DNA of 64,000 bases from Bacteroidota bacterium (GCA_022561875.1 JADFQJ010000011.1:1-64000); one strand, 5' to 3'; positions 13,776-33,694 are shown, counted from the first letter of the stretch. Made by a program: numbers and translations. The notes: generated from the sequence alone by a model not told the origin.

Positions 13776-14312
13776 CTATCTGACATCAACCAGCTCAACA
13801 TCAAAGATAAGGGTTGAGTAGGGAGGAATAGATGTAGCGCCTGTTGATCCATATCCTAATTGTGAAGGTATAATAAGAGTTGCTTTTCCTCCTTCCTTCA
13901 TATAGGCAATCCCCTCGTCCCAGCCTTGAATAACATATCCTACACCAAGTTCAAAAGAAAACGGGTTGCCTCCTTCAGAAGTATCAAAAACAGTACCGTC
14001 AATAAGTTTGCCTGTATAATGTACATATACAGTATCGCCCTGCTGTGGCTGCAAGCCAGTACCTGTTTCAGTTTCAATATAATAAAGTCCGCTTTCAGTA
14101 GATTGAACAGTTATATCATTCTTTTCAATATACTCTTTTATAGCTTCCTCTTCCTTTTTTATCAGATCCTCTTTATCATCAAGGCAGCCACCCAGGGTAA
14201 GTAATACACCCGTAAGCATAAACATAATTACGTTTTGTAATACCCTGCCTTTGTTAATTATTAATGTTTGCATATCGACTTTCATTTTTCGGTTAAAATT
14301 TGTGCATACCAT
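13776..14312 (-). CDS. FKBP-type peptidyl-prolyl cis-trans isomerase, lipoprotein
   Basis: GDTVYVHYTGKLIDGTVFDTSEGGNPFSFELGVGYVIQGWDEGIAYMKEGGKATLIIPSQLGYG; lipobox-like LTLGGC. Real start is probably internal (MKVDMQT or MQTLI). Confidence 0.92.
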   Translation of the reverse strand: MVCTNFNRKMKVDMQTLIINKGRVLQNVIMFMLTGVLLTLGGCLDDKEDLIKKEEEAIKEYIEKNDITVQSTESGLYYIETETGTGLQPQQGDTVYVHYTGKLIDGTVFDTSEGGNPFSFELGVGYVIQGWDEGIAYMKEGGKATLIIPSQLGYGSTGATSIPPYSTLIFDVELVDVR

Positions 14313-14612: not shown

Positions 14613-15152
14613 TCATCTTCCTTTAACTTTTTTTAATCTCAAATAATATACCAGTGATGCACCACGGGGGATTTTGTTTTCGTCACCCAGGAATCCGTGT
14701 GCCAGATAAGGAGGTAAAATAAAAATCGCTTCAGCCCCTTCATTCAACAAAAGTATTCCTTCTTCAAGTCCCGATTCAACACCTCCGGATCCGATAGTAA
14801 ATTGTTTCGGACCGGTTTGTTCAGATGAATAACATACTGTACCATCCAAAAGGCTGATCTTGTATTCAATAGTTGCTATTTTGCCCTTCACAGCATCAGT
14901 ACCGGTACCTTCTTTAATGATCATATACCATAAACCGGATCTGGTGGTATCCATATCCCAACCTCTTCTTTCAACATAATTCCCAATCCGCTCAATTTCT
15001 TTTTGTATAATGTACCGGTTAGTACTAATCAATGTCTCCTCATCAATGACTACCGGTTTTTTATCCTGATCACGGACATTGTTCCTGCACGAGAGCAACA
15101 AAACAGGAATGAGTAAAAACAAAGCTATATAAATAAGATAATTCACTTTCAT
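14613..15152 (-). CDS. FKBP-type peptidyl-prolyl isomerase-like lipoprotein (GldI-like)
   Basis: 179 aa; lipobox LLSC; GTGTDAVKGKIATIEYKISLLDGTVCYSS...GVESGLEEGILLLNEGAEAIFILPPYLAHGF. Confidence 0.82.
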   Translation of the reverse strand: MKVNYLIYIALFLLIPVLLLSCRNNVRDQDKKPVVIDEETLISTNRYIIQKEIERIGNYVERRGWDMDTTRSGLWYMIIKEGTGTDAVKGKIATIEYKISLLDGTVCYSSEQTGPKQFTIGSGGVESGLEEGILLLNEGAEAIFILPPYLAHGFLGDENKIPRGASLVYYLRLKKVKGR

Positions 15153-17546: not shown

Positions 17547-17588
17547 CTCATCTCTCATCTCTCATCTCTCACCTCTCACCGCTCACCT
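17547..17588. repeat. Heptamer array, 6 units (CTCATCT/CTCACCT)
   Basis: CTCATCT x3, CTCACCT, CTCACCG, CTCACCT in register; overlaps the 3' end of recF. Confidence 0.9.
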
Positions 17589-18717
17589 CTTCTTCCACTC
17601 TTCCTCTCCTCTCTTCTGACAGATCTGTTATTTCCTTATTTATCCTAAACAACCTGAAATCGGCAGATAACTCAGAAAGTATCTTTTCAAGCCGCGACTG
17701 ATGAGTATCTGTAATAAATATTTGTCCGAACTGATTTTCCGAAACCAAATGAATGATCTGCATAACCCGGGAAGCGTCAAACTTATCAAAAATATCATCC
17801 AGCAGGAGAATAGGTTCAAAACCACTTACATCTCTGATAAATTCATATTCAGCAAATTTCAATGCTACAAGATAGGTCTTTTGCTGTCCCTGCGAACCTA
17901 CTCTTTTTATCTGATAGTCGTCAAGCTCAAGAACCAGATCATCTTTATGGATGCCTCTGGTAGTATATTGCAATATCCTGTCTTTATCAAGCGCTTCCCT
18001 GAAAACGTTCCTGAAGTTACCATCATGATGGTGCGAATGGTAAACCAATCCAACCGATTCATTTCCCGAGGCAATTGAATCATAATACTTCTGAAAAACA
18101 GGTACAAGTTTTTCAATGAAATCCATACGCTTTGCATATATCTTCTCCGAAAGAGGTATTAACTGTTCATCCCATAATTCAAGTGATTCCGGCTCAAACC
18201 TGCCTGACCTGGCAAAATCTTTCAATAATTTGTTACGCTGAGCCAACGCTTTGTTATATTGAATAAGATCGTTAAGATAGTTCCGGTCGTATTGTGAAAT
18301 TACAGTGTTGATAAATTTCCGCCTTTCATCACTTCCGCCAACTATCAGATTGGTATCAGCAGGAGAGATCATAACAACCGGCAACAATCCAATATGGTCT
18401 GCCAATCGTTGATACTCTTTCTTGTTTTTTTTGAATTGTTTCTTCCTGTTTCTTTTCGAGCTGCAATAAATATTTTCCTGTGTATCATCTTTGATAAAAG
18501 TACCCTGAATAACAAAAAAATCTTCGTCGTACTTAATATTCTGACTGTCAATTGAATTAAAAAAGCTTTTAGTAAGTGACAAGTAATGAATGGCATCCAG
18601 GATATTGGTCTTCCCTACCCCGTTATTACCGACAAAACAATTGATCCTTGCCGAAAATTCCAGTTCAACCTGGCTGTAGTTCTTGAAATTAATTAGCGAA
18701 ATATTCTGCAGATGCAT
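17569..18717 (-). CDS. recF: DNA replication and repair protein RecF
   Basis: LQNISLINFKNYSQVELEFSARINCFVGNNGVGKTNILDAIHYLSLTKSFF; DDLVLELDDYQIKRVGSQGQQKTYLVALKFAE; LLLDDIFDKFD. Confidence 0.96.
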   Translation of the reverse strand: MHLQNISLINFKNYSQVELEFSARINCFVGNNGVGKTNILDAIHYLSLTKSFFNSIDSQNIKYDEDFFVIQGTFIKDDTQENIYCSSKRNRKKQFKKNKKEYQRLADHIGLLPVVMISPADTNLIVGGSDERRKFINTVISQYDRNYLNDLIQYNKALAQRNKLLKDFARSGRFEPESLELWDEQLIPLSEKIYAKRMDFIEKLVPVFQKYYDSIASGNESVGLVYHSHHHDGNFRNVFREALDKDRILQYTTRGIHKDDLVLELDDYQIKRVGSQGQQKTYLVALKFAEYEFIRDVSGFEPILLLDDIFDKFDASRVMQIIHLVSENQFGQIFITDTHQSRLEKILSELSADFRLFRINKEITDLSEERRGRVEEEVSGER

Positions 18718-19831: not shown

Positions 19832-22800
19832 TTGCCTTTTTTAAAAACCAGCTTTGTTATGCAATTACCAGGAGAACCAAAAGCCGTACTCAACCAGGAA
19901 GCCAGGAGTTTTGTCGATCTATATGCTCAACTTGGTGAAAGAGCAGAAAACTTTCTTCCCGACCGGGTCTTTGAAAGCCTTACAAATTTTGTGAGATTAT
20001 GTTATGAAGAGCCAGATGATCCTGCCAGGCAGCAGGCTGAGATCCGGAAATACCTGTTGGAACTAAAAGAGGCTATTCCCGGCTACATAGATGTTTCACT
20101 TATGCTGATGCCCCATGAAGACTCAAAAGCATTTGAGTACAGTGCAAGAAGGCAGTTATTCTTTAATACGCTCAATGAACTTATTGATACCGAGCAAGTT
20201 GATGACAAAACTAAAATCCAGTTCAGAAATATTCTTAAAACTCATGATTATTCACTGGGTACACCTCCCATTACAAATGTAACCATCGACTTTCTTTACA
20301 GGATATTGCTGGGCGACAAGGTCAGGGAACTCAGGAAATTTCGTGATCTGATAGGAGTAAGTGGTGATGTCGAGGAAGCACAGTGGAATTATATGCTTGA
20401 TGTAATGGACCAGATGATCAACCAGTCGACCCATTATACCACAAGTGCGGAAAAGGACAATTTTCTGGCCCGCACCGAATCGACGATAAATTTCAAAGGA
20501 CTCAACGGTTTCATACGTACCATTGTTTCGGGCACTGCCGAAACAGCCATCGATCTGCTTACAAAAGAAGTATTCAGCAAAAACAGCGTCAGGGTTCTGG
20601 AATTTTCGACAGCCGAAAAGCTTTATGAAGAGATATATGAAGACGGCACCAGTATTTTCGCTATCAGGATGAGAAATATGAGAAAGAACCCGTTCAACAC
20701 CTTCAGATGGTTTCCTTTGCTGACAAGAATGGTTTTCATTGATGACTCACCTGAGTCCCGGTCAACGAATACATCCCTGATCTTCTGCCTGCATAATGGT
20801 ATTATAAATACACTTAATAAGGTTCATACCAAGAAACTGGGTCCACTTGCCAACAGCCAGCTGAACCTCCGACTTATCCATGATAAGGTTAACTCCCGGA
20901 ATTTGAAATATTTCAGACAAAAGATCGAAGAAAAAATAGTCGAATATGACAAGGAACTCAGGCAGTTGAAAGAGGAACAACTCGCCAATCCCGATGATGT
21001 CGACCAGGATATTATTCTTTATAAATTTGATGAATTTGCCCGCCAGGTAATCAAAGATAAGTACATCCTTTCAAAATTCGGAGCATATATCAACCTGATA
21101 GAAAACACAAGGGACCCTGAAAATCTTAAAATTATCAACCGGGAGATGATAAGGGAATTTGAAGAAAGAACCCTCGCGTATTTTTATTCTGAGAACAAAA
21201 GCCTGCATATAGCAACAGTTGTTGAAGGTGGCGGACGTAACCAGATACGAACATATGGAGAATACCTGCTCCAACGCCCTCTTAAACCCGTAAAGGATTC
21301 AATAATAAACAGGTGCAGAATTATCCTGGATATCGTTCCTGATAATTACCAGAGAACAATACGTAATCATTTCCATAAAAACTTTGGAATAAACCTTTTT
21401 CTTGAGAAGTATAAAGAATATCTCACCAAGGTCGAAAACAGTGCGGATAACCAGGGAAGATTCAGAAACCTGCTGATTGATCTTGGTATTGAGGAAAAGT
21501 ACAATGAAAAAGATACAGCCGGTAAACAGATCATTAACGAATTCATAAGCAACCTGGGAAACCTGGAAAAAACATCTATTTCAGATGATGTTCAAATGAT
21601 TATACGAGATCTGTTGTTTTACAAGAACCGCAGACCAAACCCGTTCATTTTTTTCAACCAGGAAGCTGCCTGGGAATATAAAGACCTGTTTCCGCCCGAT
21701 CGTTTTGACCTGAATCCTTTTGATATTGAAATTGAACTCAATGAAGAGGGTCGGGTTGACTGGGAGCGATTGCTCACAAAGCTTGAACGAATTAAAAGCA
21801 CTTTTCAGTTATTCGATGAAACGGGTAATTTATGGGACCGGTTTTGTGAGAATTCAATCCTTGTTATCAATGACCCGGCAAACCCGTCAGGATTCACCGA
21901 TTTTAATAACATTCACCTGATAAAATTTTTTAAGTTCCTCAATAACAGTAAACTAACCTTATTTCTGGACGAAGCATATAACGATGCTGTGAAAATCGAG
22001 GATCCTGAAGAGCCTAAATGGCGGACTATCTCAAGGTATATCATGAATAATATCGGTTCATTTGCAAGGATAAGTATTGTATCGGCTCTCTCTACAACAA
22101 AAAATCTTGGTGCAACCGGAGATCGTCTCGGCTCCCTGATAGCTACACCCGTCAGAAAAGATGTGATTGATTATGCCAGGGAACAATTCGGAGTTGAAAA
22201 AGGGAACACAAACTCCCTGTTCATTCTGGTTAATATACTGGAAACAGCCCAACTGGCAAAAAAGATAAAAGACAGAATGGACGAAAGTCTTCCAAAAGAC
22301 GCTTCACGGTATAAGATAAAAGATAAGCTGAAAAAGTATATCATGACGGAGATCCGGGATAATATCAATGTCCGTGAAAACGGGTACAAAGGTCGTATAC
22401 GAAATCCATCACTATTCGAAGGAAGTCCGCTTCACCTGTTCCTTCTCGAAGAGCTTGTCTCCCTCGATAAACTCGACGTGCTCGAACTACCCGATGATTT
22501 CAAATATAAAGGTGTTCCGTTTTTCAGCTATTATAAAGAACACCTCGTACGGGAGCTGAATGAATTCAGGGTGAACAAGATATTCCGGCAGGAAGCTAAT
22601 AAAAGACTTGATCTGGTCAAAAAAAAGGCGTTATCAGTTTTATCTGAAAACGAAGAAAACCAAATTGGCATACTCGACTCAGACGGGTCATACCTGTTCA
22701 ACCTTCATCTGAAAGACTTTTTCTCGTACCAGGATCTTGAAAAATTTACAATAAAACTGTCTGGCCAGCGTGGTATTGCTCTTATCCCCTACCAGACAGG

Positions 22801-25800
22801 ATTCTTACGATTCTCTCTGGGTGATTACCTGGAAGGTACAGCAGACAGTTATGATATTTTTATAAAAGAATTTGAAAATGCACTGAGGATCTTTCTGAAG
22901 TACTGGTCAATTTTCTATGAAGCAAAGAATAATCCTTCTAACAAAACAAAACGGACTGAAGATATTCTGGATGAAATATTCAGTGTTCGGAATGATAGTG
23001 AACTGATCGGGAATATCCTTGAAGATTTCTATATCATTCGTGATCTTGACAAAAAGATCAACAACTCGTTAAAAATCAGCGATATAAAAACCCTTTATCA
23101 TGCTTTCCCAAAAGAATGCGGGGTTTCAATAAATTCAATTGGTGATTCGAAGAATACAGTTCTGGAGTTTTATGAAAATGTTGGAAAATGCAGAAATCTG
23201 ACAGAGTTTATCTCATCAAAAGCATTTACAAAAGTATATGAGAACCTTCTTCCTCAGGTTTATCGAAACATTCCACACCTTAAAAAGCTTGATATCAATA
23301 CGGTAATTGCCAAATATGGGAAAACAACCTTACTGAAGTATATTAAAAGCAAGCTTGAATTCCAGCCAGACCGGTATATACTCGATAACCCGGATGAACT
23401 GACTATTATGCAGGAGATACTGATAGAACTGGAAAGGATCCTGTTTTCTGATGCAAAAACCAAAATACTGTCAATTAATGCAAATGAAAATGATATTCCC
23501 GGCGACCTGGCTAAACTGGAAGGTTATAATAGAATACTAAGAAAATACATCCAGGAATTGTTGCTGCATTTTAACCTCCCTTTTGAGCAGCAAGCTATTG
23601 AACCCACATTTGAACAACTTGCTAATTCAACAGCTGTAAAATTTAACGAGATTGTCGGATTATCTGTAAATGACCTTAACCCGGATATTTTCATGAACCT
23701 GTATATCGAGAAAATCGATAATAGATTGCACGACCTAAACCGTGATGAGATGATGAGAAGATATTCCGGTGTTATCCAACAAACAATCCGTAAACAGGTG
23801 CATCATTCGCATCTTACAACGGTTAATAAGATATTGTTTCTTTACCTGCTGCAGAAGGATAATTGCTTTGAAACCAGGGTGATTGAGAAAATAAACCGGT
23901 TCACAGGCCATTCTGATAATACAGAACAGGAAGATATAAGACTAATTAAGGAAGATCTGGTATCACGACTTATTCCGGCGGAGATAACGGCATTGATGGA
24001 TGAAATATTCACACAAAGAAAAATAAAGATAATTCCTGATCACCTGCACAATGAAGTCAGGGAGATAGTCCTGTTTTTTATCAGCCTGGCAAACATGACC
24101 AAAAACAACGAGTATTATAAAAAATATAATCATATACTTATCAGACTGGTTGAAACTGAATTCATGCAACAGAATTCCAGCATTAATGAAATGGTACAAC
24201 ATGGGATTGTCCTTCACAGAGATTTTTCCATAAAAAACAACCCACTTGAAAAATGGAACAAAGGATCGTTATCATGGATCGTGCAATTGATGTCCCGCTG
24301 TGGAGTAATTGCCTGGGAACAACCGGTACAATTACGTACACGCATCGCAACCGATGCCAAGAGAAGGCTATATCCATTCCATAAGGTTGACAGGATTGAG
24401 GAGCCATCCGGGAACAAAAAAATTGGTGATAATTCCAACCGTAATGAATTTATTAAAAAAATGCAGGTCAGACCTTTATCATCATTTTTTATCAAAAGAC
24501 TTGCTCTTTTTGCACAAAATCTTGATGAAGAAGATTACAGGTGTAAAATCGTAAAAACCGGGTTGGTTAAGGAACTCTATATTATTCAAAAATCATATTT
24601 AAAATACCTGGCGGATAATTACCGGTTGATTGGCCCTGGATTTATAGATCTTCGTGATGTTCAAAACTTCATACCCGATGTAATACTTTTTCTCGGGGCT
24701 CCTGAGAAAGTTATTTCATTCCCTGAAATCGGATATTTCGACCTGAAAGGCCCCAATGGTAACATTAAAACTATCGTAACACCACTGAAGAAATCAGTTG
24801 ATTATTTTGGTAACATCAAGAAACCGAGGTTAACCATGGTGAATGAAAAAGTGAAGGAACTTGGCGGCTTACCTGTTCATGGTTCTCTGTTTGCCGTGGA
24901 AGAAGATGACGGTAGTATATTTGTGATCCAGATAAGTGGTGATAGCGGTGTTGGTAAATCTGAAATGCTTGCTGCCATGATGTTGAAATGGATGAAAAAA
25001 GATCTGCCGGGCATCCGCTCAATTAAGATGATTGCCGGGGATATGTTTCATCTGTTCCCTGATGAAGAGGGTAACCTGTATGGGATAGGTACAGAAACGG
25101 GTGATTTCTCGCGTGTAACGGATTTTGATCCTGATTTTATTAAATATTATAATTCCCTTTTCGAAAGCAGTGCAGACAGTAATGTGAATGATCTGAACTC
25201 CAGAAGCACTATCAGTGGTTTATGTGATATCAATATGCCTTTTAAAATTGATATCATGCTCACAGCCTACAACTTTGCCAAAGAAGAAGCAGGTTTGAAA
25301 CGATATGCCAACCCTGAAAACTTTTTTCTCTATCGTGATTCACATGGCGAAAGGAAAGAAAAAGCAACAAGCTCAGACAATCCGCATATTCAGCGTACTC
25401 TGCTCAGGTATACTGGCGACAAGAATATTGTTGAAGTAATCGACCGGTATGGCAACCATCTTGATGATATTCTTACATGGGAAAAAGATGAATTTACCGG
25501 AATACATTACCTGTCATCCTCATACAAGATGATGGATAAGATTGATATTGAAGATGTTGTTAACAAGATATTTATTAAAAAATATTTTAACCGGAATAAC
25601 AAGGAATTCCTGATCAATAAAGTCAGGTTTGATATAATTGAGAACAGGTTCATTATAGATGCAAAATGCACAGATGGTGAAAGTAAGATTTCGTTCCCTG
25701 TTGACAGGGATTTCTTTGGCACCATGTTTAATACTCTGGCCAGTACTCCGGCAGGAAACCCATTCATTGCTGAGCCGGGAGAAAGTGAAGCTAAGAAAAA

Positions 25801-26527
25801 CCTTATTGAGATACTGAAAGGAAGGCCGGACGGAAAAGGAAAAGGAAAAAACATCCAGCTTGGCATCCTTTCGACTGATCTTGGCAAGAAAGGAAAAGAA
25901 ATAACCGGTCCCCAAAAAGCTGCAGAAGATGTTAGAACTTTGATACGCGAAGTGAGAATTATGAGCCCTGACCTTGACAGAAAGAAAAATCATGTTAAGA
26001 AGTTAATTGTCGAATGCTATAAGCATCTGTTCAGGCATCATAAACATAATATGGAAATTTGGCGGTATAATTTCTACCTGTACCAGCTTGAAGAAATGCG
26101 AAAAGCCAGGCTGGTTAGAATAGATGATATGAAAACTAAAATTGACCTGTCAGGATTAGCGGGTTTCTATCCTTTACCAAAGAATCATAAATTCAGTCCG
26201 TTACTGATAACCCCAAATATCAATATTGAGTTAAACGGGTTTAGTGAAACTTATGAACAACTAATGTGGTTGCCTAATAACCAGGCGTTTGCTAACCAGT
26301 TCTATCTCGATTGCGATAAAGTTTATGTTGCAAAAGGATATAGCAAAGACACTATTATTAACAACATGGTTATACAGCTTCTTTTGATGAACGGGTATAT
26401 TGAAGTTGAGGACCTTACTCTTAGCAGAATAACTGAAAAGGCAAACCGTGAAACAATTGCTGCAGCTAAATTTGCAGTTGTAAAGAAGCTTAAGGAAATT
26501 GAACCAGAGAAGACCGGAAAAAAGTAA
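19832..26527 (+). CDS. Giant 2231-aa protein: PLP-dependent aminotransferase (fold type I) domain plus C-terminal HprK/PEPCK-like P-loop module
   Basis: Single uninterrupted ORF; NDPANPSG (680-687), LDEAY (712-716), SALSTTKNLGATGDRLGS with Lys757, FLRFSLG with Arg993; HprK-like LPVHGSLFAVEEDDGSIFVIQISGDSGVGKSEM with Walker A at 1703-1710. Start may be the internal MQLPGEP at 19859. Confidence 0.85.
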   Translation: MPFLKTSFVMQLPGEPKAVLNQEARSFVDLYAQLGERAENFLPDRVFESLTNFVRLCYEEPDDPARQQAEIRKYLLELKEAIPGYIDVSLMLMPHEDSKAFEYSARRQLFFNTLNELIDTEQVDDKTKIQFRNILKTHDYSLGTPPITNVTIDFLYRILLGDKVRELRKFRDLIGVSGDVEEAQWNYMLDVMDQMINQSTHYTTSAEKDNFLARTESTINFKGLNGFIRTIVSGTAETAIDLLTKEVFSKNSVRVLEFSTAEKLYEEIYEDGTSIFAIRMRNMRKNPFNTFRWFPLLTRMVFIDDSPESRSTNTSLIFCLHNGIINTLNKVHTKKLGPLANSQLNLRLIHDKVNSRNLKYFRQKIEEKIVEYDKELRQLKEEQLANPDDVDQDIILYKFDEFARQVIKDKYILSKFGAYINLIENTRDPENLKIINREMIREFEERTLAYFYSENKSLHIATVVEGGGRNQIRTYGEYLLQRPLKPVKDSIINRCRIILDIVPDNYQRTIRNHFHKNFGINLFLEKYKEYLTKVENSADNQGRFRNLLIDLGIEEKYNEKDTAGKQIINEFISNLGNLEKTSISDDVQMIIRDLLFYKNRRPNPFIFFNQEAAWEYKDLFPPDRFDLNPFDIEIELNEEGRVDWERLLTKLERIKSTFQLFDETGNLWDRFCENSILVINDPANPSGFTDFNNIHLIKFFKFLNNSKLTLFLDEAYNDAVKIEDPEEPKWRTISRYIMNNIGSFARISIVSALSTTKNLGATGDRLGSLIATPVRKDVIDYAREQFGVEKGNTNSLFILVNILETAQLAKKIKDRMDESLPKDASRYKIKDKLKKYIMTEIRDNINVRENGYKGRIRNPSLFEGSPLHLFLLEELVSLDKLDVLELPDDFKYKGVPFFSYYKEHLVRELNEFRVNKIFRQEANKRLDLVKKKALSVLSENEENQIGILDSDGSYLFNLHLKDFFSYQDLEKFTIKLSGQRGIALIPYQTGFLRFSLGDYLEGTADSYDIFIKEFENALRIFLKYWSIFYEAKNNPSNKTKRTEDILDEIFSVRNDSELIGNILEDFYIIRDLDKKINNSLKISDIKTLYHAFPKECGVSINSIGDSKNTVLEFYENVGKCRNLTEFISSKAFTKVYENLLPQVYRNIPHLKKLDINTVIAKYGKTTLLKYIKSKLEFQPDRYILDNPDELTIMQEILIELERILFSDAKTKILSINANENDIPGDLAKLEGYNRILRKYIQELLLHFNLPFEQQAIEPTFEQLANSTAVKFNEIVGLSVNDLNPDIFMNLYIEKIDNRLHDLNRDEMMRRYSGVIQQTIRKQVHHSHLTTVNKILFLYLLQKDNCFETRVIEKINRFTGHSDNTEQEDIRLIKEDLVSRLIPAEITALMDEIFTQRKIKIIPDHLHNEVREIVLFFISLANMTKNNEYYKKYNHILIRLVETEFMQQNSSINEMVQHGIVLHRDFSIKNNPLEKWNKGSLSWIVQLMSRCGVIAWEQPVQLRTRIATDAKRRLYPFHKVDRIEEPSGNKKIGDNSNRNEFIKKMQVRPLSSFFIKRLALFAQNLDEEDYRCKIVKTGLVKELYIIQKSYLKYLADNYRLIGPGFIDLRDVQNFIPDVILFLGAPEKVISFPEIGYFDLKGPNGNIKTIVTPLKKSVDYFGNIKKPRLTMVNEKVKELGGLPVHGSLFAVEEDDGSIFVIQISGDSGVGKSEMLAAMMLKWMKKDLPGIRSIKMIAGDMFHLFPDEEGNLYGIGTETGDFSRVTDFDPDFIKYYNSLFESSADSNVNDLNSRSTISGLCDINMPFKIDIMLTAYNFAKEEAGLKRYANPENFFLYRDSHGERKEKATSSDNPHIQRTLLRYTGDKNIVEVIDRYGNHLDDILTWEKDEFTGIHYLSSSYKMMDKIDIEDVVNKIFIKKYFNRNNKEFLINKVRFDIIENRFIIDAKCTDGESKISFPVDRDFFGTMFNTLASTPAGNPFIAEPGESEAKKNLIEILKGRPDGKGKGKNIQLGILSTDLGKKGKEITGPQKAAEDVRTLIREVRIMSPDLDRKKNHVKKLIVECYKHLFRHHKHNMEIWRYNFYLYQLEEMRKARLVRIDDMKTKIDLSGLAGFYPLPKNHKFSPLLITPNINIELNGFSETYEQLMWLPNNQAFANQFYLDCDKVYVAKGYSKDTIINNMVIQLLLMNGYIEVEDLTLSRITEKANRETIAAAKFAVVKKLKEIEPEKTGKK

Positions 26528-26552: not shown

Positions 26553-26930
26553 TTACCTGGCTGCAATAGCATCAATCTCAATTTTAACATTCAGAGGCAG
26601 CCTGGCAACCTCATATGCAGCCCTGGCAGGAGGATCTTCGTTGAAGAACTTTTCATAAGCTTTGTTCATTTCTGCAAAATCATTCATATCCTGAAGCATG
26701 CAGGTTGTTTTCACTATCTCTTTCAGTGAATATCCTGCAGCATTTACTATAAAACGAATATTCTTTAAAACCTGTTCAGTCTGTTCAGTTATAGTATCAC
26801 CGGTAAGTTTCCCGGTGTCAGGATCGAGTGGTACCTGACCTGAGACATATAATGTACCATTTACTTCAATAGCCTGGCTGTAAGGACCAACTGTGCCGGG
26901 AGCTTTTTTAGTACGTATTACTTTTTTCAT
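26553..26930 (-). CDS. ridA: RidA family reactive intermediate/imine deaminase
   Basis: 125 aa; GTVGPYSQAIEVNGTLYVSGQVPLDPDTG, RAAYEVARLPLNVKIEIDAIA. Confidence 0.96.
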   Translation of the reverse strand: MKKVIRTKKAPGTVGPYSQAIEVNGTLYVSGQVPLDPDTGKLTGDTITEQTEQVLKNIRFIVNAAGYSLKEIVKTTCMLQDMNDFAEMNKAYEKFFNEDPPARAAYEVARLPLNVKIEIDAIAAR

Positions 26931-32263: not shown

Positions 32264-33694
32264 ATGAATAACTCTTATCAGGACGTCTGGAAAAATTGTT
32301 TGAAAATAATCAAAGACAACGTACCATCAATAAGTTACCGAACCTGGTTTGAACCTATAGTTCCCATAAAGGTTAATAGTAATATCCTTACTATACAGGT
32401 GCCAAGTCCGTTTTTCTATGAATACCTGGAAGAACAGTATATCGATATTCTGAGAAAAACCCTCAGGAAGGAATTGGGTCCCGATGCAAAGTTGGAATAT
32501 AATGTCATTATAGAAAATTCACAGTTTGACCAATCTAAACCTTATACTGTTAAATTTCCTACTAAGAACAAAATTGATTTAAAAAACCGGCCCTTCACAT
32601 TGCCATTAGAGGCTGAAAGTAATTCAATAAAAAATCCATTTATAATTCCCGGTATCAGGAAGATTCATGTAGATCCCATGTTAAATCATGATTATACATT
32701 TCAAAATTTTATTGAAGGTAATTGCAACCGGCTGGCTCGTTCTGCAGGATTTGCAGTTTCAAACAAACCGGGTGGAACAGCTTTTAATCCCCTGTTGATT
32801 TATGGTAATTCGGGACTGGGAAAAACCCATCTCGCTCAAGCAATTGGAATCTTAGTTAAGGAAAAGTTCCCTGAGAAAATAGTTTTGTACGTCAACGCTA
32901 ACAAATTTCAGACTCAGTATGTTGAATCTGTAAGAAACAACAACTTGAATGATTTCCTCCATTTCTACCAGATGATCGATCTGCTCATTCTGGATGACGT
33001 TCATGAGTTCGCAGGTAAGACAAAAACACAGGATACATTTTTTCATATTTTTAATCATTTACACCAGAGTGGTAAACAACTGATACTTACTTCAGACAAA
33101 CCACCGGTTGAGCTCCAGGGACTGGAACAAAGATTGTTATCGAGATTCAAATGGGGACTTTCCGCCGATCTTCAGTCACCCGACTTTGAAACACGAATAG
33201 CAATCCTTAATAAGAAAGCATATAACGATGGGATTGAACTTGATGGTGAAGTACTGGAATACGTTGCTACACATATAACAAATAATGTTCGCGAGCTCGA
33301 GGGGGCGCTCATTTCGTTATTGGCACAATCAACCCTGAACAGGAAGGAGATTACTTTAGATCTCGCCAGAGAGATGATTGATAAACTGATAAAGAATTCA
33401 CATCGGGAGATCTCAATTGATTATATACAGAAGATTGTTTGCGACTATTATAATATTCCCCTTAACCTGATACAAAGTAAAACCAGGAAAAGAGAAATTG
33501 TGCAGGCCCGCCAGGTAGCTATGTTCTTCTCAAAAAGTCTTACAAAATCTTCTCTTGCAACTATCGGATCTCAAATTGGAAAAAAAGATCATGCCACTGT
33601 ACTGCATGCCTGCAAAACAGTTAATAACCTTATTGATACTGATAAGCAATTCAGATTACAAATACAGGATATTGAGAAAAAATTAAGTTTCTGA
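32264..33694 (+). CDS. dnaA: Chromosomal replication initiator protein DnaA
   Basis: NPLLIYGNSGLGKTHLAQAIG, LLILDDVHEFAGK, C-terminal GSQIGKKDHATVLHACKTV. Confidence 0.97.
   Translation: MNNSYQDVWKNCLKIIKDNVPSISYRTWFEPIVPIKVNSNILTIQVPSPFFYEYLEEQYIDILRKTLRKELGPDAKLEYNVIIENSQFDQSKPYTVKFPTKNKIDLKNRPFTLPLEAESNSIKNPFIIPGIRKIHVDPMLNHDYTFQNFIEGNCNRLARSAGFAVSNKPGGTAFNPLLIYGNSGLGKTHLAQAIGILVKEKFPEKIVLYVNANKFQTQYVESVRNNNLNDFLHFYQMIDLLILDDVHEFAGKTKTQDTFFHIFNHLHQSGKQLILTSDKPPVELQGLEQRLLSRFKWGLSADLQSPDFETRIAILNKKAYNDGIELDGEVLEYVATHITNNVRELEGALISLLAQSTLNRKEITLDLAREMIDKLIKNSHREISIDYIQKIVCDYYNIPLNLIQSKTRKREIVQARQVAMFFSKSLTKSSLATIGSQIGKKDHATVLHACKTVNNLIDTDKQFRLQIQDIEKKLSF

Follow-up and report, generated by a model that had tools for sequence, protein, structure and literature searches.

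Organization of the giant gene

The window analysed here, a stretch of 64,000 nucleotides from a Bacteroidota bacterium (GCA_022561875.1, JADFQJ010000011.1:1-64000), contains a gene for a giant protein in which a pyridoxal-phosphate (PLP) domain of the aminotransferase type is followed by a P-loop domain resembling phosphoenolpyruvate (PEP) carboxykinase (PEPCK). A single unbroken frame of 2231 codons, counted from a TTG, runs from 19832 to 26527 on the plus strand, as the initial annotation of this DNA had described, and all the motifs quoted there were located at their positions. Its start codon, TTG 19832, is replaced here. Because codon 10 (ATG, 19859) encodes a methionine that is invariant across homologues, and the residues upstream of M10 are not conserved, this ATG is the most likely site of initiation. 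The product would then have 2222 amino acids (aa), a mass of 259 kDa and an isoelectric point of 6.6. Residue numbers follow the numbering from TTG 19832. The G+C content of the gene is 38.7%, against 38.3% for the window. No hydrophobic segment of the transmembrane type was found in the protein (Kyte-Doolittle values stay at or below 1.6 in every 19-residue stretch), which is probably soluble and cytoplasmic. The gene and its regions are as follows.

19859..26527, plus strand: the whole giant gene, which encodes 2222 aa when read from the conserved ATG; TTG 19832 would give 2231 codons.
19859..21181, plus strand: residues 10-450, a helical segment, a predicted five-stranded alpha/beta domain and more helices, no family (AlphaFold secondary structure; Pfam and PDB sequence searches negative).
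21182..22921, plus strand: residues 451-1030, a fold-type-I PLP domain of the class I/II aminotransferase kind, probably interrupted by a helical insert at ~482-600 (Pfam, AlphaFold, Foldseek, hidden Markov model (HMM) alignment, invariant residues).
22979..24298, plus strand: residues 1050-1489, central region, mostly helical, no family, least conserved at 1290-1400 (structure model, homologue alignment, family search).
24299..25966, plus strand: residues ~1490-2045, putative PEPCK-like phosphotransferase module (predicted fold, profile tests, invariant signature).
25967..26524, plus strand: residues ~2046-2231, C-terminal extension, absent from free-standing relatives of ~580 aa (comparison with those relatives).

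The PLP head

The Pfam family Aminotran_1_2 (PF00155) matches residues 637-784 (E=1.2e-8; 35 bits against a cut-off of 19.7) and is matched by 36/36 aligned homologues at E<=1 (best 8.9e-14). The AlphaFold model of residues 1-1050 has a predicted local distance difference test score (pLDDT) of 81 and a predicted template modelling score (pTM) of 0.81. Foldseek found 167 PDB matches to it at E<=1e-3 (best 2.5e-6), and the 50 listed are all fold-type-I PLP enzymes, aminotransferases among them. The head carries EGGGR at 465-469, of which E465-G468 is the phosphate loop by motif, NDPxNPxG at 680-687, and STTK757. HMM alignment to ACC synthase places STTK757 on the SLSK segment of the Schiff-base lysine, fixing the register of Lys757. 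Residues E465-G468, W614, N684, D713, Y716, S754, K757, R765 and R993 are invariant in 55/55 sequences; their roles we take to be those of the counterparts in aspartate aminotransferase. The PLP site appears complete by these residues, and transamination is predicted. The proposal of a fold-type-I domain with Lys757 and Arg993, first made from the sequence, is thus borne out by the Pfam match, the Foldseek search and the invariance of both residues.

Because the Foldseek alignments span 450-630 columns for targets of only ~350-460 aa, the aminotransferase core probably occupies residues ~450-1030 and is interrupted by a helical insert of ~105 residues (~482-600). A core at 139-1030 was also considered and dropped, the fold alignments being too short to span that range.

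Regions without an assigned family

Residues 10-450 gave no match in Pfam or PDB sequence searches, residues 1050-1490 are mostly helical in the model, and no curated family was found for either region or for the P-loop module. Large regions without a recognizable fold family had been noted at the outset, and these two still fit that description. The early segmentation was right to set apart an unrecognized N-terminal part; that part, however, holds a predicted alpha/beta domain, with strands at 228, 253, 275, 300 and 314, and the aminotransferase core follows within the limits given above.

Residues 10-450 are possibly an abbreviated second fold-type-I domain that lacks the Schiff-base lysine; the strands predicted there may be arranged in the order of such a domain. 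The best match in a viral fold library, an unnamed 867-aa entry, is aligned across both halves of 1-1050 (TM 0.23-0.26, root-mean-square deviation (rmsd) 32). Comparison of all segments with each other by hhalign revealed no internal duplication; only the ends that overlapping pieces have in common matched. Since this comparison was negative and the identity of the viral entry could not be confirmed, the second domain is offered as a tentative assignment.

The PEPCK-like head

The AlphaFold model of residues 1040-2231 has a pLDDT of 73 and a pTM of 0.60. All of its 50 top Foldseek matches in the PDB are PEPCK, and HprK is absent from them; the best has E=2.8e-4, and the TM-scores by target are low, at 0.2-0.3. 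Invariant in the 55 sequences are Y1658-x-G1660, K1663/K1664, H1683, the P-loop GDSGVGKS at 1703-1710, D1737 and N1789-x-R1791. YxG, KK and His presumably correspond to the oxaloacetate-site Tyr and Gly and to the metal-ligand Lys and His of PEPCK. The Y, G, KK, H and P-loop positions were matched by automatic alignment; D1737 and N1789-x-R1791 were assigned by eye, from their order, to the metal-binding Asp and the region of the catalytic Arg. At the start of the module lies TRxxTDxK (1503-1510), with R1504 invariant. R1504 may be the counterpart of R65 of E. coli PEPCK, placed by motif and rough distance only: it precedes Y1658 by 154 residues, against ~142 for R65-Y207 in E. coli and 148 in rat.

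When a profile built from the module was run on the lineage's true ATP-PEPCKs, these scored as high as 14.7 bits, against a maximum of 2.6 bits for 240 shuffled and 12 reversed controls; this HMM search was chosen after hhalign had failed and the motif had been seen by eye, so that the controls cover the chance score and not that choice. Four of the 12 true PEPCKs score no higher than the controls. The profile alignment pairs YGG-KK-MH-P-loop of the module with YFG-KK-VH-P-loop of the true enzymes. Comparison of the module with PEPCKs of its own lineage by hhalign gave no signal (low effective number of sequences, Neff).

Family profiles gave little. The P-loop region of the window protein has no Pfam match above cut-off, and among 36 members PEPCK_ATP was found, below cut-off, in two (best E=0.076) and PEPCK_GTP in one (E=0.16). 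Hpr_kinase_C (PF07475) does not match the window protein at E<=1 and is weakly matched by 6/36 members (best E=5e-4). A PDB profile search with the module returned only weak matches, Rab GTPases first, then HprK (E=0.08) and PEPCK (E=0.45); a PDB sequence search with the whole protein returned nothing.

Because the top 50 fold matches are all PEPCK and YxG..KK is invariant, the P-loop domain is predicted to be nearer to PEPCK than to HPr kinase, and PEPCK-type activity is predicted for it. The initial annotation had read an HPr-kinase/PEPCK-like domain, since the wording of the P-loop is that of HPr kinase. A P-loop domain of this superfamily stands; the closer likeness is to PEPCK. The module does not start at ~1640: it begins at ~1490-1530 and ends at ~2045.

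Distribution and conservation

Homologues were found at 51 loci in genome contigs (54-94% identity), most full-length and some cut by contig ends. Nearly all are of Bacteroidales type, from cultured Marinilabiliaceae (Anaerophaga, Thermophagus, Marinilabilia and Geofilum) and many Bacteroidetes metagenome-assembled genomes (MAGs). A 'KSB1' MAG and a 'Chlorobiota' MAG also carry the giant protein; because both sequences fall among the Bacteroidales ones in the tree, mislabelling, misbinning and transfer are all possible. Within the order, a near-full-length copy is present in 12/198 genomes, this one included; the window's own family has a copy in 20/98 genomes (one decayed), and its own genus in 7/7 searched. 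In the tree of the giant protein related hosts group together with strong support.

Against five relatives, the ratio of nonsynonymous to synonymous substitution rates (dN/dS) is 0.065-0.108 for the whole gene and 0.04-0.14 by segment. Every segment is under purifying selection, and since these values hold throughout, the segments without an assigned family are also constrained. Across 55 distinct full-length sequences, whose pairwise identity falls as low as 48%, the catalytic positions of both heads never vary, an invariance far beyond chance.

One copy (L117, G850:C7:62000-66996) is apparently decayed. It has an internal TGA and lies at a contig end; because its matches end at residue 1225 and restart only at 1735, it lacks the P-loop.

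Free-standing relatives of the PEPCK-like module

Free-standing relatives of the module, of ~580 aa, occur in other Bacteroidales. They align to residues ~1563-1847 (hhalign probability 99.6%), and blastp reveals a further common C-terminal stretch near 1948-2040. Curated family cut-offs are reached neither by them nor by the module. Genomes that have a free-standing relative and lack the giant protein number 31 in the family-level set, all in one genus; because the exclusion is confounded with kinship, it is not evidence of shared function. This uncurated family was seen at loci L076 and L077-L082. Two paralogues are present in each of genomes G664 and G773, and one paralogue per pair adjoins a gene that by eye looks like a class I fructose-bisphosphate aldolase.

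Gene neighbourhood

The neighbours of the giant gene, named by eye from sequence at more than 20 loci, differ between clades. A convergent RidA gene (26553-26930, minus strand) lies 26 bp from the giant-gene stop. RidA is an enamine/imine deaminase that clears reactive intermediates of PLP enzymes. This adjacency is kept only in the close relatives L002, L003, L010 and L013 and in L045, and not in other clades.

Elsewhere in the window, two FKBP-type prolyl isomerase paralogues lie close together (13776-14312 and 14613-15152, minus strand). The presence of recF (17569-18717) and dnaA (32264-33694) suggests that the window is near the chromosome origin.

Proposed function

Because the residues of both heads are intact and strictly co-conserved as one chain, we favour a bifunctional enzyme in which both heads are catalytic and the second is PEPCK-like rather than HprK-like; we judge this probable, with considerable room for doubt. 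The PLP head would be an active PLP-dependent fold-type-I, aminotransferase-like enzyme, and the second head an active PEPCK-like phosphotransferase dependent on metal and nucleoside triphosphate. The two would act on consecutive intermediates, and the helical regions between them would hold the heads in position and may hand an intermediate across.

In Bacteroidia PEPCK makes oxaloacetate from PEP (PMC11238397). Since an aminotransferase can convert oxaloacetate to aspartate, the most concrete chemistry that fits the conserved residues would have the PLP head interconvert aspartate and oxaloacetate, using a keto/amino acid partner, and the PEPCK-like head interconvert oxaloacetate with PEP and CO2. 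The net result would be aspartate-PEP interconversion with oxaloacetate kept within the enzyme. As a specific assignment this is tentative and, taken alone, rather unlikely; the substrate may instead be another 2-keto acid, or an amino acid or a protein may be phosphorylated. More speculative, and improbable, is a version in which an active and a degenerate fold-type-I domain make up the PLP head as an internal pseudo-dimer and transamination is coupled directly to the PEPCK-type reaction within the 259-kDa chain, for example as channelled PEP + CO2 <-> oxaloacetate <-> aspartate.

Several observations weigh against the bifunctional enzyme or its proposed chemistry. The same genome has a separate true ATP-PEPCK, so that the giant protein is not needed for the PEPCK step alone. 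By the scores given above, the model of residues 1040-2231 is of no more than moderate quality, and residues 1757-1798, R1791 included, fall in a low-confidence stretch. The putative oxaloacetate-binding Arg (R65/R87 of PEPCK) is placed by motif and distance only, and the nucleotide-base pocket is not mapped. Substrate-specificity residues appear unreadable here, and the substrate assignment is a candidate. The neighbourhood survey suggested at the outset was run, and the variable neighbours point to no pathway. In six loci read by eye, the free-standing relatives have no recognized aminotransferase neighbour.

The strongest alternative, doubtful but well ahead of the others, is that the PEPCK-like head is a kinase for a small molecule or protein (an amino acid, a cofactor or a protein Ser), with the PLP head producing or consuming the compound that is phosphorylated. 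HPr kinase is a kinase within the same superfamily as PEPCK, the P-loop GDSGVGKSE is worded as in HPr kinase, and the weak Hpr_kinase_C matches and the order of the PDB profile hits, both cited above, lean the same way. The fold matches, however, are to PEPCK alone, no HPr gene was recognized among the neighbours examined, and the invariant YxG..KK is a PEPCK feature that, to our knowledge, is not found in HPr kinase.

It is unlikely that the giant protein is a regulatory sensor in which one or both heads bind a ligand (a PLP adduct or a nucleotide) without turnover and signal metabolic state. Large regions without enzymatic homology, a patchy distribution with gene decay in one relative, and the lack of a conserved operon would suit such a role, but no DNA-binding, receiver or membrane modules were found in family and hydrophobicity scans. 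The sensor with degenerate enzyme domains that was first entertained is disfavoured because both catalytic residue sets are invariant. An anti-phage or other conflict system built on enzyme-like domains is very improbable: patchy presence in the order and giant size recall such systems, but a PADLOC search was unconvincing (only E=0.009, over the P-loop), a plasmid search found no match, related hosts group in the tree, and every genome of the own genus searched has the gene. An assembly fusion or gene-calling artefact, for which nothing was found in favour, is excluded for practical purposes by the 51 independent loci, cultured isolates among them.

The giant protein, bacterial and strictly conserved, joins two well-known folds of central metabolism. 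Should both heads prove active, a single chain would, unusually, combine amino-group chemistry with phosphoryl/carboxyl chemistry of the PEPCK type; relatives that can be grown in culture make this testable by expression and simple assays.

Comparison with known systems

The giant protein appears to combine known folds in an undescribed architecture. No curated family covers it as a whole, and no account of an aminotransferase/PEPCK-like fusion was found in the open-access literature.

A coccolithovirus serine palmitoyltransferase consists of two fused fold-type-I subunits in one chain, encoded by a 2604-bp gene (PMC5371807). The 867-aa viral entry has the length of that gene's product; the viral match is weak, and no internal sequence repeat was detected in the giant protein. 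With HPr kinase/phosphorylase (PF07475) the giant protein shares an HG ahead of the P-loop and the GDSGxGKSE wording; it differs in the YxG..KK signature and in a module of PEPCK size.

Class I/II aminotransferases (PF00155) share with the PLP head the predicted fold and the full catalytic set W, N, D, Y, S, K, R, R. The giant protein differs from them in the helical insert, which precedes the PLP-stacking Trp, in the embedding of the domain in a chain of 2222 aa, and in its low identity (~9-16%) to the solved structures matched by fold. The second head resembles PEPCK (PF01293/PF00821) in predicted fold and in having YxG, KK, His, P-loop, Asp and NxR in the same order; unlike PEPCK, it lies below all Pfam and NCBIfam cut-offs, has an HPr-kinase-worded P-loop and is fused. 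The ~580-aa proteins are unfused and were not found together with the giant protein in any genome of the sets searched. They share with it ~30% identity over residues ~1540-1850 and a C-terminal GPxxAAE motif, and the giant protein points through them to an uncharacterized PEPCK-like family in related bacteria.

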